From: Tetradesmus obliquus
Taxonomy: Eukaryota > Chlorophyta > Chlorophyceae > Sphaeropleales > Scenedesmaceae
Assembly (NCBI GenBank): GCA_030272155.1
Contig: CP126198.1
Span: forward strand, 3,906,001-3,970,000
Reading direction: 5' to 3'
DNA length: 64,000 bases
Shown: positions 1 through 64,000 of the stretch, one piece after another
How positions within the stretch are numbered: the first letter of the stretch is position 1
How the letters are laid out: every line of letters starts with the position of its first letter
Made by a program: the position numbers and the translations under genes
Notes under the pieces: model-generated
What the model was told of the DNA's origin: nothing
Databases searched by the model: none
What the model saw: only the letters and a program-made list of their open reading frames with translations

Positions 1-3000
1 CAAGGCGGTGGTGCTGGTGGCAAGTACAAGTGAGCAAGGCTTGATGCTTGGCAGACATTGCTGCTAACAACAACACAGTCATTAGCTGCTGCAATGACTG
101 CGTTCTGTGGTGCTTGCAGGGGCCTGCTGGGGACATGCATGACCATTGCAAAAGAGGAGGGGCCTAGCGCGCTGTGGAAGGGACTGGAGCCAGGTGTGCA
201 GCTGCTTCCAAGTTATCACACACAAGCAGAAATGTTGGTTTTAAATGTGCTCTGAGTTTCATTCTGGCAGTCTGGCATTTGCTGCATCTGGGGAGGCAGC
301 ATTGTGGCTGATCTGCTGCAGCTTGTGATCTGCTGATCTGCAGGCAGCAAACAGCGCTGCTGTCTTGATATAGTCACAGATCACCCACAGCCTATGTGTC
401 CTGCAAGCAGAACATCTATTGCACCGAACCATTGGCACAAGATTGAATCGCGTCCAATGTGGCGTTTGTTCTGCAAAGATATGTGTGCGCTGGGTTGTTG
501 TTGACTAGGGTTTCGGTGCTGCGTTGTGTGCTGCAGGCCTGCACAGACAAGTCATGTACGGAGGGCTACGCATTGGCCTGTACGAGCCGGTAAGCAGCGG
601 CAACGGTTCACTGGTTTTCAGTCACATGGCGGATCAGCAACGCCAGCCAGCTATGATGCAGTGCTTCAGGAGCAGCAGCAGCAGCCGCAGCAGCAGCAGC
701 AGCAGCAGCAGCAGCAGCAGCGTTGTCAGTGTTGCAGCGACGGCAGCAGGAGCAGCAGCAGCGACCAGTATCATTCAATGAGCAGATGTGCTGCTCAGCA
801 GAAAGTGCGACAGCTCAGGCTCGGCAGCAACAGCTTCTACTGCTGCACTGGCTGCAGGAAGCTGTGAGACACAGGGGCCAGTCACAGCAGCAGCAGCAGA
901 ACAGGTGCAGCGGCTGCATCACCCCTGCTTGGATCATGTTGACAGTTCCACGCGGAGATCATCAGCGGCTGTGATCTATTACTCGCCAGCAGCTGTGTGG
1001 CGTTGAGTTCCAGGTTAACAGGTTAGGGTGTAGAGCTGGCTCTTCGGAGCGCTGCTCGTCCAGGCAGCACACCATCAAGTCAACTTGGGTTGCGCTGCTG
1101 CTGCTGCTGCTGCTGCTGCTGCTGCTGCTGCTGCTTCTGTGTGCAGGTGAAGCAGTTCTTTGTGGGCAAGGACCACGTGGGTGATGTGCCGCTGCACCTC
1201 AAGATCGCGTCAGGCCTGGCAACTGGAGCCATTGCCATCACAGTGGCCAGCCCAACAGACCTGGTCAAGGTGCGGCTGCTGCTGAGGATATCTTTTAGAC
1301 ACAAAAAGGAAATATACGCAGCAGTCAGACACACAGCTTGGATAGGCTCGTCGTTGCCTGCACACCTGTGGCTGCTGTGTTTTGATTGGAAACGGTGGTG
1401 GGTTTGGCCTTGGCAGCAGCACGTGTTGTGAGACGGCCGTGGGTTTGCCCTGGCAGCATGTGCCGCTGCACCTGAAGATTGCGTCAGGCCTGGCCACAGG
1501 GGCCATTGCCATCACAGTGGCCAGCCCTACAGACCTGGTCAAGGTGGGCTGCTGTGTTACTTTTGTTACAACAGCTATGAAGTTGAGGTGCTGCTGCAAA
1601 TTGGGTGGTGGTTTGGGCTTGCATTATTGCTGTGGATGGGGAGACTGCATGCGTGTGCTTGCTGGACATGCACACAACCCTGCACCCACAAGTTCCCCCA
1701 CAGGTGCATGGAGAGAAAGTGTAAAAAGCCGCAGGGTCAGCCTTGCCCCTGAGCGCTATGCGGACTCGCTGCACTGCGTGCCCTGCCTGCTTCTTCAAAC
1801 CCCTGCACGTGCGCATGCAGAGCGCGTGCAAGAAGGCGCCCGGGTCGAACTAAAAATACTGCAAGCCCCAACTTATTTTCGCTTACGCAAGTGTGTGTGT
1901 GTCACCACATGTGTTTGTGTATCACCCGCAGGTGCGCATGCAGAGTGAGGGCAAGAAGGCTCCTGGTCAGCCCAAGAAGTACGCCAACGCGTTCAAGGCG
2001 TACGGCATCATCCGGCGCGAGGAGGGCCTTGCTGGGCTGTGGAAGGGCCTGGGGCCCAACATCGCGCGCAACGCCATCATCAACGCGGCAGAGCTGGCCA
2101 GCTACGACCAGATAAAGGTGCGTGTCCAACAGTAACAGGTGGATCATTTGTGATTTGCTTAATGATAAGTGTCGCAGAGCTGGCCAGCTACGACCAGATA
2201 AAGGTGCGCAGTGGACGCTTTGGTTCTGTGTGCTGCTGTGAAGTGTGCGTTACGCGTGATGGGATCATTAATGCGGCGGAGCTGGCCAGCTACGACCAGA
2301 TAAAGGTGCGTTGTACAGCCATAGCTTGCGGGATCGAACATCCAGCTGTTCTGCTGCTGTGTAAAACTGGCTAGATAGCAAGTGCAGCGGAGCTGGCCAG
2401 CTACAACCAGATCAAGGTGTGGAATAGCACCGCCCACACACCTGGCAATGGCTGGTATCAACAGCTTCTGCTGTCGCGAACAATATATGCTGCTGCCGCT
2501 GCAGGTGTCGCTGCTGGCGACGGGCTACTTCGGGGACATCGTGGTCACGCACCTGGTGACTGCTGTTAGCAAGCACTCCTGCTGTTGCTGCTGTTGCTGC
2601 TGCTGCTGCTGCTGTCGCTGCAGGTGTCGCTGCTTGCCACCGGCTACTTTGGGGACAACGTGGTCACGCACCTGCTGTTTTGGACGGTGTTATTTTAACA
2701 GTGTTACATTGTCACAATTATGCGCAGGTATCGCTGCTGGCGACCGGCTACTTTGGGGACAACGTGGTGACTCACCTGGTGGCGGGCCTGGGCGCGGGCT
2801 TCTTTGCGGTGTGCGTGGGCTCACCCGTGGACGTGGTCAAGAGCAGGGTCATGGGTGAGCGTGTTGAGCAGTTACCACCACTGCCAGCAGCAGCAGCAGC
2901 AGCAGTGGACATGGTCAAGAGCAGGCTCATGGGTGAGATGACACAGCAGCAGCAGCAGCAGCAGCAGCAGCAGCTGTGGGCCTTTTTGTGTACACATGGT

Positions 3001-4398
3001 CATGAGCGGCAGGGTCATGGGTGAGTAGCAGCAGCGGGCTCAGGCGGCAGGAGGCGGCACAGAATAGTGTTCAACAGGCATGCTGCTGCTTGCCGCCAGC
3101 TGGCTGCATCTTGCAGGTCAGCCGCCAAAGCTGTGCGGCTGCAGCAGGAATGCAGCGCTAGCACCTGCCAGCAAGTGTGCTTGCTCAGCTTGTGCATTGG
3201 CATGGCACCTGCACTGGTGCTGCACTGGGTGGTGCTGACCATTTTGCAGCAGTCTGTTGCGTCACACGCTTAGGCCTTCTGCCAAGTGTGTGTGCTCATG
3301 TTTGCTGTGGTGTGTGGTATGCATGCAGGCGATGCGACTGGCAAGTACTCGGGAGTGCTGGACTGCTTTGTGAAGACTGCACGCAATGACGGGCTGCTGG
3401 TGGGTGTGCCGACACTAGCACAGCTTGCAGCGCCATTGCTTTGTATCCTGTGGCAGCAGCTGTTGCAGTGTAGTGGGGGCTGCTGAGCCATCAGTCTTCT
3501 GGTTGCATGCTGGCAAGCACCCTTTTTTGCCGAACTGTTTGCTCAGCTGATGACAGCCTTGACATGCAAGAGTGTATGCAGACTTTGAGCAGGGCAACAG
3601 GCACGTGTAAATCTACAGACTGTAAGTGTACGAGGCAGCGGATGCTGCAAGGTAGTTCTTTGTACCTGGCCAACACTGTGCAGTCAGCAACTTGGCGTGT
3701 CATTTTGTGTTCCTCCGTTCAACAGGACTGCAGGCATGTACGTACCTGGTGTGATACCTGTTGGCGTGTGCAACAGCATCGCTGCAGGCGTAGGCGTGAT
3801 AGTGATGAGGCCTTGACTCACGTGCTGCTGCTGCTGCCTCATTGTCCTGCAGGCGTTCTACAACGGGTTCATGCCCAACTTTGCGCGCCTGGGCAGCTGG
3901 AACGTGGCCATGTTCCTGATGCTGGAGCAGGTGGGTGCACTGCATAGAGTAAATCAAAACAAGAGGCCCGGGCATTTGCTTGCAGGATATGCGTGCAGGG
4001 CGGGTGCATGCCTGCCCTGCCAGCCTCAACAATGGCTTGCGGGACACTTGTGCAGGACGCAAGGGATGCTCGCCTGGCGCTATAGAGCTGCTTGATGAGC
4101 AAGGTAGCTGCAGAATGGCTTGTGCAGGCTGTGTGTTGACTTGCAGGAGAGCATGCAGCAGGTTTCTTGTATGCCGACAGCTCCTGCAGCAGCTGTTGAC
4201 TGTGCCAGGAGAGGGGTCGCTCATCAGCAGCACTTCCTGGTCTCCTTGAACTAGAAACTGTTCAAGGGCGGGAAACAAACGTGCAGCTGCAGGAGCGCTG
4301 CCTTTGCAACCACACTTTCAATTCTGCTACTAACAAGGTTAATTTGTGCTTGCCCGATGTTGCAGATGAAGCTGGTGCTGGCGCCCAAGTCATCGTGA
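1..4398 (+). CDS. UCP: Mitochondrial uncoupling-type carrier (plant UCP/PUMP class, SLC25), 5' partial
   Basis: Inner-membrane SLC25 carrier; plant UCPs dissipate proton gradient and exchange dicarboxylates/amino acids. Phase-consistent exons: <1-29, 120-193, 537-589, 1147-1269, 1932-2117, 2728-2854, 3329-3399, 3853-3930, 4366-4398, totalling 258 codons including the stop. The protein follows plant UCP closely from about the middle of carrier repeat 1 to the C-terminus. Carrier signatures seen are SPTDLVK (exon 4) and SPVDVVKSR (exon 6); the repeat-1 signature lies before the window. Conserved blocks include [38 protein letters not shown] and [17 protein letters not shown]. The last exon encodes [10 protein letters not shown] and a stop. 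TGTAA motifs at 4484 and 4732 are possible poly(A) signals. Introns carry many partial exon copies, listed separately. The family call is firm; in-vivo substrate is not determinable. Confidence 0.91.
1457..1543 (+). other. Duplicate of UCP exon 4, candidate alternative exon
   Basis: Copy of the 3' two-thirds of exon 4 (1147-1269), preceded by AG (1455-1456) and followed by GT. It is 87 nt, exactly 29 codons in phase 0-0, and still encodes the carrier signature [10 protein letters not shown]. By hand alignment over 28 codons it differs from the true exon at six positions, all synonymous third bases. It lacks the matrix-loop part [13 protein letters not shown]. It could be a mutually exclusive or optional cassette; transcript support is unknown. 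Confidence 0.6.
1704..1850 (+). repeat. Two degenerate copies of the UCP exon 5 start
   Basis: About 1704-1760 and 1809-1850 resemble the acceptor and first codons of exon 5 (1932 onward, [16 protein letters not shown]). Both are badly decayed: the first contains in-frame stops and the second soon ends in a stop. They lie upstream of the true exon, as expected for acceptor-side duplications. Confidence 0.55.
2118..2417 (+). repeat. Array of three copies of the UCP exon 5 3' end with donor
   Basis: After the true donor at 2118 the exon end encoding [10 protein letters not shown] recurs, ending at 2202, 2305 and 2416, each followed by GTG. The first two copies are identical or synonymous to the true exon; the third changes D to N. 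Flanking intron sequence differs between units. Confidence 0.85.
2505..2680 (+). repeat. Two copies of the UCP exon 6 start with acceptor
   Basis: Copies beginning at 2505 and 2624 precede the true exon 6 (2728), each after CAG. Each encodes [11 protein letters not shown] followed by N or I, then VVTHL. By hand, the 2624 copy differs at five positions over 17 codons, all synonymous. The 2505 copy has five synonymous changes and one replacement (N to I). Confidence 0.82.
2905..3024 (+). repeat. Two copies of the UCP exon 6 3' end
   Basis: Segments ending about 2932 and 3022 repeat the exon 6 end encoding [10 protein letters not shown] with its GTGAG donor. The second carries small insertions. 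CAG tracts lie next to them. Confidence 0.65.
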
Positions 4399-63850: not shown

Positions 63851-64000
63851 GCCAAGGATTTGGCGGGAAAGCAGCTGAGCAGAGCAGGGAGCCGCACATT
63901 GCATGTTGCTGATGAAGAGGCTATTAAAACAAATCATGCAACGTACTGGTCGTGTAGAAGCATGTTGGCTCTCATTGCAGAGTGGATCTGTGTTATGAAT

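Follow-up and report, generated by a model that had tools for sequence, protein, structure and literature searches.

Introns of the green alga Tetradesmus obliquus carry partial copies of the edges of the exons beside them. This observation is confirmed, and it points to a good part of the introns having grown stepwise, by about 120 bases at a time, with a partial exon edge and a splice site added at every step. The preferred explanation, to which a probability of about 45% is given, is that introns grow by recurrent local duplications straddling the splice junction, that the intronic halves erode while the edge halves are kept by exchange, and that exon definition makes the additions tolerable. 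It is based on the copies, their geometry and spacing, the edge-limited homology, the excess at junctions and the gain in length, all recorded on predicted exons.

Sample and gene models

The sample consisted of the window (the whole 64-kb stretch that was analysed) and five random 40-kb chunks of the same genome, with 442 splice junctions searched. The exons throughout are predictions of a home-made gene finder trained partly on homology-picked exons of the window. The training was repeat-masked and constrained (an unsupervised version drifted onto CAG repeats); neighbouring genes are fused, and 43 of the 357 called exons are themselves copies. The whole-genome DNA searches used two exons as queries and skipped simple repeats and very common words. 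Contig C1 begins with telomere-type arrays and has such arrays again at the highest coordinates listed for it, which suggests a chromosome-level assembly.

Exon-edge copies in the introns

A partial copy of the exon edge was found in the adjacent intron at 65 of the 442 junctions, and in 63 of these cases it lay no more than 1 kb away. In the window alone, 25 of 115 searched junctions had copies. All seven genes named in a first-pass annotation have predicted exons with copies, and the count at each affected junction, 1 to 6, is the one claimed there. The pattern was also called pervasive, but the spread is uneven: one random chunk had copies at 0 of 94 junctions, and eight 3.3-kb carrier loci (with overlaps L001/L006 and L004/L008) had them at 1 of 34. 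The features of the window are the following.

1458-1554, + strand: copy of the 3' edge and donor (real 1184-1281) of UCP-like exon 1147-1269, 94% identical
1802-1843, + strand: 5'-edge copy of UCP-like exon 1932-2117, 83%
2174-2208, 2264-2311 and 2384-2419, + strand: 3'-edge copies (real 2076-2123) of exon 1932-2117, 100, 94 and 89%
2501-2558 and 2620-2677, + strand: two 5'-edge copies of exon 2728-2854
2907-2937, + strand: 3'-edge copy of exon 2728-2854, 94%, in CAG-rich surroundings
8409-8451, + strand: 3'-edge copy (real 8245-8287) of CLC exon 7935-8273, 95%
8338-8390 and 8635-8687, + strand: two 5'-edge copies of predicted exon 8796-8937 of the CLC gene
9948-10005, + strand: 3'-edge copy of predicted exon 9667-9842, 91%
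10104-10151, + strand: 5'-edge copy of predicted exon 10335-10523, 94%
10763-10951, + strand: two 5'-edge copies of predicted exon 11024-11248, 129-bp period
11380-11663, + strand: two 3'-edge copies of predicted exon 11024-11248
20839-21414, + strand: four 3'-edge copies of SCaMC-type carrier exon 20614-20789
21574-21609, + strand: 5'-edge copy of exon 21783-21926
22176-22728, + strand: five 5'-edge copies of SCaMC-type carrier exon 22801-23076, a ladder with 98-141 bp steps
26690-26919, + strand: two 3'-edge copies, 94 and 100%, of exon 26444-26515 (putative histidine phosphatase, as named in the first-pass annotation)
32244-32292, - strand: 3'-edge copy of predicted exon 32382-32541, assigned to the P450 gene by position
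33123-33210, - strand: 5'-edge copy of predicted exon 32785-32965, assigned to the P450 gene by position
33812-35003, - strand: P450 array with a 255-bp unit, outside the copy list and fused into one exon by the gene finder
35328-35407 and 35473-35569 (3' edge) and 35844-35892 (5' edge), - strand: copies of predicted exon 35634-35768
36537-36643, 37048-37127 and 37209-37278, - strand: copies of the 5' and the 3' edge of predicted exon 36799-36979
41704-41744, + strand: weak 3'-edge copy of predicted exon 41441-41619, 83%
43393-43750, + strand: two 3'-edge copies of AP2-like exon 43073-43247
44909-45320, + strand: four 5'-edge copies of predicted exon 45387-45668
63097-63843, - strand: six 5'-edge copies of triose-phosphate-transporter-family exon 62742-63044, 132-bp period

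Pfam matches above the cut-off were obtained for CLC, the SCaMC-type carrier, P450, TPT and a UCP exon at 1929-2129; AP2 and one UCP exon were matched only below it, and 36823-36960 in predicted exon 36799-36979 had no Pfam match. In the region of the P450 array, one frame is open over 33343-34878 (511 codons), with five p450 Pfam stretches; the array may be either intronic or translated. The copy of exon 1147-1269 has six exonic differences, every one at codon position 3. The spacers between the three 3'-edge copies of exon 1932-2117 appear unrelated by eye.

Among local matches to 239 exons, the 5' edge was included in 62 of 72 upstream matches and the 3' edge in 66 of 80 downstream ones; 14 of the remaining 24, which had no expected edge, were attributed to paralogy between exons or to doubtful exon calls, and none of the local matches spans both edges of an exon. 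The geometry described earlier, with 5'-edge copies upstream and 3'-edge copies downstream, is thus seen again, but it is uninformative by itself because the functional exon body forces it. Donors matched their own intron in 47 of 224 cases, compared with 2 of 224 under random query-intron pairing. The two whole-genome searches (SCaMC-type exon 22801-23076 and triose-phosphate-transporter exon 62742-63044) listed only local copies; for the former, these were the exon, its five nearby copies and nothing else listed. For these two exons, the idea of units distinct for each gene, not a transposon, is borne out.

Spacing and intron length

The distance to the nearest copy, taken at 63 junctions, was 78-164 bp at 47 of them (mean 124) and 201-280 bp at 16 (mean 241), with none at 165-200 bp. 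In the first mode, the exon part and the gap were anticorrelated (r = -0.44 and -0.40), and the total step near 124 bp was held tighter than the length of the edge or the filler. For the second mode, degenerate intermediate copies fell below P 0.05 against shuffles in 6 of 16 cases. Intron-only and intergenic duplications with similar spacings are also present.

Introns with copies had a median length of 505 bp, which returned to 245 bp once the added length was subtracted (n = 47; about 5 introns were dropped, their summed distances having reached the intron length). Copy-free introns had a median of 262 bp (n = 230; p = 0.66 against the corrected value). This agrees with the earlier statement that the copies expand introns. 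In a table of PMC5966456, the introns of T. obliquus average 462 bp, compared with 230-302 bp for the four other green algae tabulated there.

Extent of the homology

The homology usually ended close to the splice site: 0-15 bp beyond it in 71 of all 120 copies, and no more than 15 bp from it in 40 of 67 best copies, often despite near-identical edges and also at 95-100% edge identity. The outermost copy of the array of exon 62742-63044 stops 10 bp beyond the splice site. Of 21 outermost copies with at least 93% edge identity, 15 scored below 12 for intronic homology, and 10 of 13 copies with at least 95% edge identity had no extended intronic homology by an unmasked measure. Since most near-identical edges lack extended intronic homology, exchange would have to be strong. 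The splice dinucleotide was retained in 99 of 120 copies (AG 53/62, GT 46/58), which agrees with the first-pass view that each unit spans an exon-intron junction, but the unit is mostly no plain junction-spanning block because the homology usually ends so soon past the splice site.

Homology over the full period gave a mixed picture: the spacer was shared by 33 of 49 inner array copies and 16 of 65 outermost ones (simple repeats unmasked), and the rest had weak residual homology. In the 52 of 65 low-scoring cases, the residual flank homology between the real edge and the outermost copy was 4.0, whereas the two nulls gave 2.1 (p = 9e-6) and 2.5 (p = 3.5e-4), and a weak residue of this kind is predicted by an eroded duplication. 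Contiguous two-copy duplications with intronic homology are present, and spacers separating copies of one junction sometimes look unrelated by eye.

Excess at splice junctions

In 149.6 kb of genes, a junction lay inside 55 of 65 genic duplication clusters; rotation gave an expectation of 32.5±3.3 and, over 300 rotations, a maximum of 43. Edge-limited clusters numbered 38, compared with 8.7±2.6 by rotation. Within these sampled genes an excess over random duplication is therefore present, as the first-pass proposal of a junction-duplicating process demanded. The over-representation stands, but local duplication of about 120 bp with differential survival can also produce it. Duplication coverage near junctions was about 15-17% at exon edges and 8-15% in introns; the former is only slightly above the latter, which leaves the cluster counts, and not the coverage, as the basis of the excess.

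Tandem duplication followed by neutral decay was simulated with assumed rates and with detection thresholds similar, not identical, to those of the survey, and 1,500 of 4,000 simulated duplications were evaluated. The detected ratio of junction to intron-only cases was 272:334 (344:334 with small overlaps), compared with 55:8 observed clusters. Of the simulated junction cases, 83% had full-period homology (95% among the 41 with at least 93% identity), compared with any full-period pair in 24 of 55 observed junction clusters.

Sequence evolution of the copies

Changes in the copy tips numbered 57, 43 and 95 at codon positions 1, 2 and 3, with rates of.041,.029 and.083, compared with.066 in the aligned intron overhang. 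Changes in the exon tips numbered 2, 0 and 33, which fits the edges taken as real. Non-triplet indels occurred in 22 of 120 copies, and there were 8 in-frame stops. At single-copy junctions in the random chunks alone, pN/pS of the copies was 0.37 (0.22-0.62), with free drift compatible. In part the copies change as coding DNA does, even though some of them are broken; such a pattern might result from exchange with an exon under selection. Base composition alone was considered as the cause of the codon-position bias and set aside. Set aside as well were mini-exons, as the printed contexts had no consistent second splice site by eye, and cDNA-mediated insertion, as the copies contain intronic splice-core bases.

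Possible origin of the copies

Duplication would be the birth event of the copies, exchange the force that preserves them, and exon definition the reason why they are tolerated. A segment of about 80-165 bp straddling a splice junction would be duplicated locally and recurrently, and each event would lengthen a normal intron by about 124 bp or roughly double that length, leaving a partial exon edge and a splice site inside. The gene would survive because the splice site adjoining the exon body stays in use, the nearest pair across the exon being chosen; exon definition is suggested by this very survival. The intronic half of each duplicate would then decay, while gene conversion or unequal exchange with the functional exon would keep the edge half similar and also expand the arrays. 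The outcome would be a ladder of "ghost" exon edges that end just beyond the splice core. Gene conversion across repeats of 30-100 bp would be unusually efficient. That introns are built about 120 bp at a time by a process linked to splice junctions, with exchange keeping the ghost edges as a private pool of near-copies, is a tentative and rather doubtful further claim.

The abrupt end of the homology, even at the highest edge identities, and the unrelated look of some spacers would also fit a break or template switch by the splice site that inserts filler, exon edge and splice core, with no homologous flank at any time. Such templated insertion is unlikely, as the residual flank homology exceeds its nulls, contiguous junction duplications exist, the total step is tighter than either of its parts, and there is no evident reason why DNA breaks should heed donor and acceptor sites alike. 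The scarcity of changes at codon positions 1 and 2, relative to position 3 and to the intron overhang, and the retained AG and GT could instead point to a function of the intronic edges, which selection would keep, for example as decoy or regulatory splice sites or as alternative coding ends. Frame-breaking indels, in-frame stops and the absence of a consistent second splice site from the printed contexts speak against function. Drift at the measured rates is estimated to preserve about as many splice sites as were retained, and this reading is improbable.

Random tandem duplication of the ordinary kind, followed by neutral decay, in which junctions would stand out only through the slow decay of real exons, would fit the similar spacings of intron-only and intergenic duplications. 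It predicts neither the edge-limited homology nor the junction excess, the simulated ratios and the rotation counts lie far from those observed, and it is disfavoured as quite improbable. An artefact of assembly or gene models, or a dispersed transposon or introner, is very improbable. The exons are predicted, with fused genes and copies called as exons, but substitutions and different spacers distinguish the copies, the telomere-type arrays speak for the assembly, the exon-tip changes fit real edges, and the units were local in both genome-wide searches.

Relation to known systems and significance

The nearest precedent recognised, in a searched literature with few subscription papers, is the potato RdRp gene, in which, as far as the accessible account goes, one junction-crossing tandem duplication created a new intron (Ma, Lan and Niu 2016, PMC4974935). 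In contrast to that one event in one gene, many genes are affected here, on donor and acceptor sides and with multi-copy ladders; the copies are absorbed by existing introns, and homology is mostly confined to the exon edge. Exonic and intronic sequence across one junction is nevertheless duplicated, as in the 55 of 65 clusters. Rogers-type intron gain likewise reshapes gene structure by short tandem duplications with the protein unchanged, but there an AGGT-containing exonic segment is duplicated into a new intron, whereas here existing introns lengthen: judged on predicted introns, the copies consist of an edge and splice core within introns whose size is normal without the added length, unlike a new exon-derived intron with duplicated AGGT bounds. 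The introners of Micromonas, in the accessible part of PMC3488318, also place repeated sequence in introns of many genes; those elements are common to many genes, whereas the present units are private to each junction, and the two whole-genome queries found no element repeated in unrelated genes. Exon definition as a rule of splice-site choice (Carranza et al. 2022, PMC9225289, as far as its accessible text goes) describes how splicing works in other organisms rather than a feature of a genome, and would apply here by extension. Whole exons with both splice sites, as in mutually exclusive exon arrays, were not found among the copies, some of which carry the non-triplet indels; nor is placement independent of gene structure, as in a plain minisatellite, given the rotation maximum.

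Intron lengthening is usually ascribed to transposons. The edge copies offer a concrete, measurable route to it and point to an unusual mode of intron building, in which real splice sites are ringed by look-alikes. They also constitute a natural experiment in splice-site choice, with one to six copies in their own exon context beside each affected junction. The genes presumably pick the correct site, and RNA data could expose the splicing rule directly.

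Copies of exon edges in adjacent introns

Introns in the window and in four of five random 40-kb chunks, which served as a survey beyond it, contain copies, i.e., partial duplicates of an exon edge with its splice site. The first-pass annotation held that copies of 5' edges lie upstream of the exon and copies of 3' edges downstream, and this rule was borne out over 239 exons: the 5' edge was present in 62 of the 72 upstream matches and the 3' edge in 66 of the 80 downstream matches. Within 1.5 kb, 87 direct-repeat pairs and no inverted pairs were found in the window; no repeat pairs appeared in three control chunks generated by a Markov model. 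Donor queries matched their own intron in 47/224 cases and introns of other genes in 2/224. In a second search, one or more copies were present at 65 of the 442 junctions, 31 of them acceptors and 34 donors, although two of these, with a copy more than 1.1 kb away, probably reflect exon–exon paralogy.

In the window, 25/115 junctions bore copies; the random chunks gave 0/94, 16/87, 6/42, 4/57 and 14/47. This unevenness is significant (tested with denominators up to two larger). Unlike the other chunks, c4_1981810 (pieces L009–L012) showed no edge copies at its 94 searched junctions, perhaps because of expression or recombination.

Exons were called with a simple gene finder whose training was seeded with 17 window exons or exon parts chosen by homology; these were mostly recovered, which is not an independent test. 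The finder merges adjacent genes, and 43 of the 357 called exons are copies of others. Tip changes at the presumed real edges numbered 2, 0 and 33 at codon positions 1, 2 and 3, as expected for true coding exons.

The genome comprises 104.7 Mb in 17 contigs, with a GC content of 56.5% (57% published for T. obliquus; PMC5966456), and a green alga of the Tetradesmus/Scenedesmus type is its likely source. One contig, C1, has telomere-type arrays both at its start and at the highest coordinates listed for it, which suggests a chromosome-level assembly. Telomere-repeat matches recur every 889 bp in its first 5 kb (1170, 2059, 2948, 3837, 4726), which suggests a subtelomeric repeat containing telomere sequence.

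Other repeats were observed in the window and chunks:
54843–56669: CA-rich simple-repeat tract, 1.8 kb
50978–52555 and 58454–60183: diverged direct duplication, ~7.5 kb apart, blocks of 65–91% identity
33343–34878 (−): P450 array, 255-bp unit, a single frame open over 511 codons, five P450 stretches; it may thus be translated
Chunk c13_1958471 (L021–L022), base 4 to about 12450: satellite-like array, unit near 312 bp
Chunk c9_614439 (L017–L020): recurring single-exon predicted genes, 312–411 bp, both orientations; possibly, as a guess, a histone cluster

Structure and divergence of the copies

At 47 of 63 junctions the nearest copy lay 78–164 bp away from the real edge (mean 124); at the other 16 it lay 201–280 bp away (mean 241). 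No spacing at these 63 junctions fell between the two modes or beyond 280 bp up to 1 kb, and, by an estimate based on the score threshold, spacings down to ~40 bp should be detectable. Copies include 26–122 bp of exon. Intron-side homology ends within 15 bp of the splice site in 71/120 copies, 40/67 best copies and 46/67 outermost copies (those farthest from the exon), even where identity is 95–100%. It runs on into the intron in 33/49 inner and 16/65 outermost copies; copies without such extension show a weak excess of flank similarity (4.0 vs. 2.1 and 2.5 under two nulls).

Introns with copies have a median length of 505 bp. Subtraction of the distance to the outermost copy gives 245 bp, against 262 bp in introns without copies (p = 0.66; n = 47 and 230, about five introns dropped). 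The stretches that separate real edges from their outermost copies make up ~12% of intron bases.

Differences between copy and exon are concentrated at third codon positions, with pN/pS = 0.20 over 120 copies. At 39 single-copy junctions the value was 0.29 (0.19–0.43), with 0.14 in the window and 0.37 (0.22–0.62) in the random chunks; free drift since birth would give about 0.5, which is compatible with the random chunks taken alone. Non-triplet indels occur in 22/120 copies, and 8 in-frame stops were counted, so at least the copies affected are noncoding at present. Splice dinucleotides are retained in 53/62 acceptor-side and 46/58 donor-side copies, and median splice-site scores are somewhat lower in copies than at real sites (4.6 vs. 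6.2 and 5.5 vs. 6.8).

Origin of the copies

The 149.6 kb of gene sequence contain 65 duplication clusters: 55 with a junction, 8 intron-only and 2 exon-only. In this sample, junction-containing duplications exceeded random placement: rotation of clusters within their genes gave 32.5±3.3 with a junction (highest of 300 rotations, 43), with 21.5±3.3 intron-only and 11.0±2.8 exon-only. With strict exons, the respective counts were 54, 9 and 2, against 28.6, 25.5 and 10.9. Since selection would remove duplications within exons, junction cases are best compared with intron-only ones. The coverage profile counts against a simple reading of the excess: edges (about 15–17%) barely exceed introns (8–15%), with exon interiors reaching up to 10%.

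Plain neutral tandem duplication fails on two predictions. Simulated random duplications of ~122 bp with neutral decay gave detected junction and intron-only cases at 272:334 (344:334 with small overlaps), i.e., ~1:1, whereas 55:8 was observed. The simulation also predicted that 83% of junction cases would show full-period homology, a share that rose to 95% among the 41 with ≥93% identity, but a full-period pair of any sort was seen in just 24 of the 55 junction clusters. For this reason we favour a process in which a local segment would be duplicated across a splice junction, the intronic half would erode, and exchange with the functional exon would keep the exon-edge half similar. Such a process explains why some homology persists in the flanks and why copies, although partly broken, evolve under half constraint. 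It also explains the arrays whose outermost copy stops at the splice core, and the gain in length. Its main rival, insertion of an exon edge plus filler, fits the sharp homology boundary better but leaves the residual flank homology unexplained. Direct function of the copies agrees with the codon-position bias and clashes with the frameshifts and stops.

A single duplication with the same span is described for a potato RdRp gene (PMC4974935). No genome-wide description of such copies was found in a literature search with most subscription papers outside its coverage. Among the splice sites of an array, the one adjoining the exon body must presumably be the one used. In large introns, splice sites are reported to pair with the nearest partner across the exon (PMC9225289), and such pairing would by analogy select this site.
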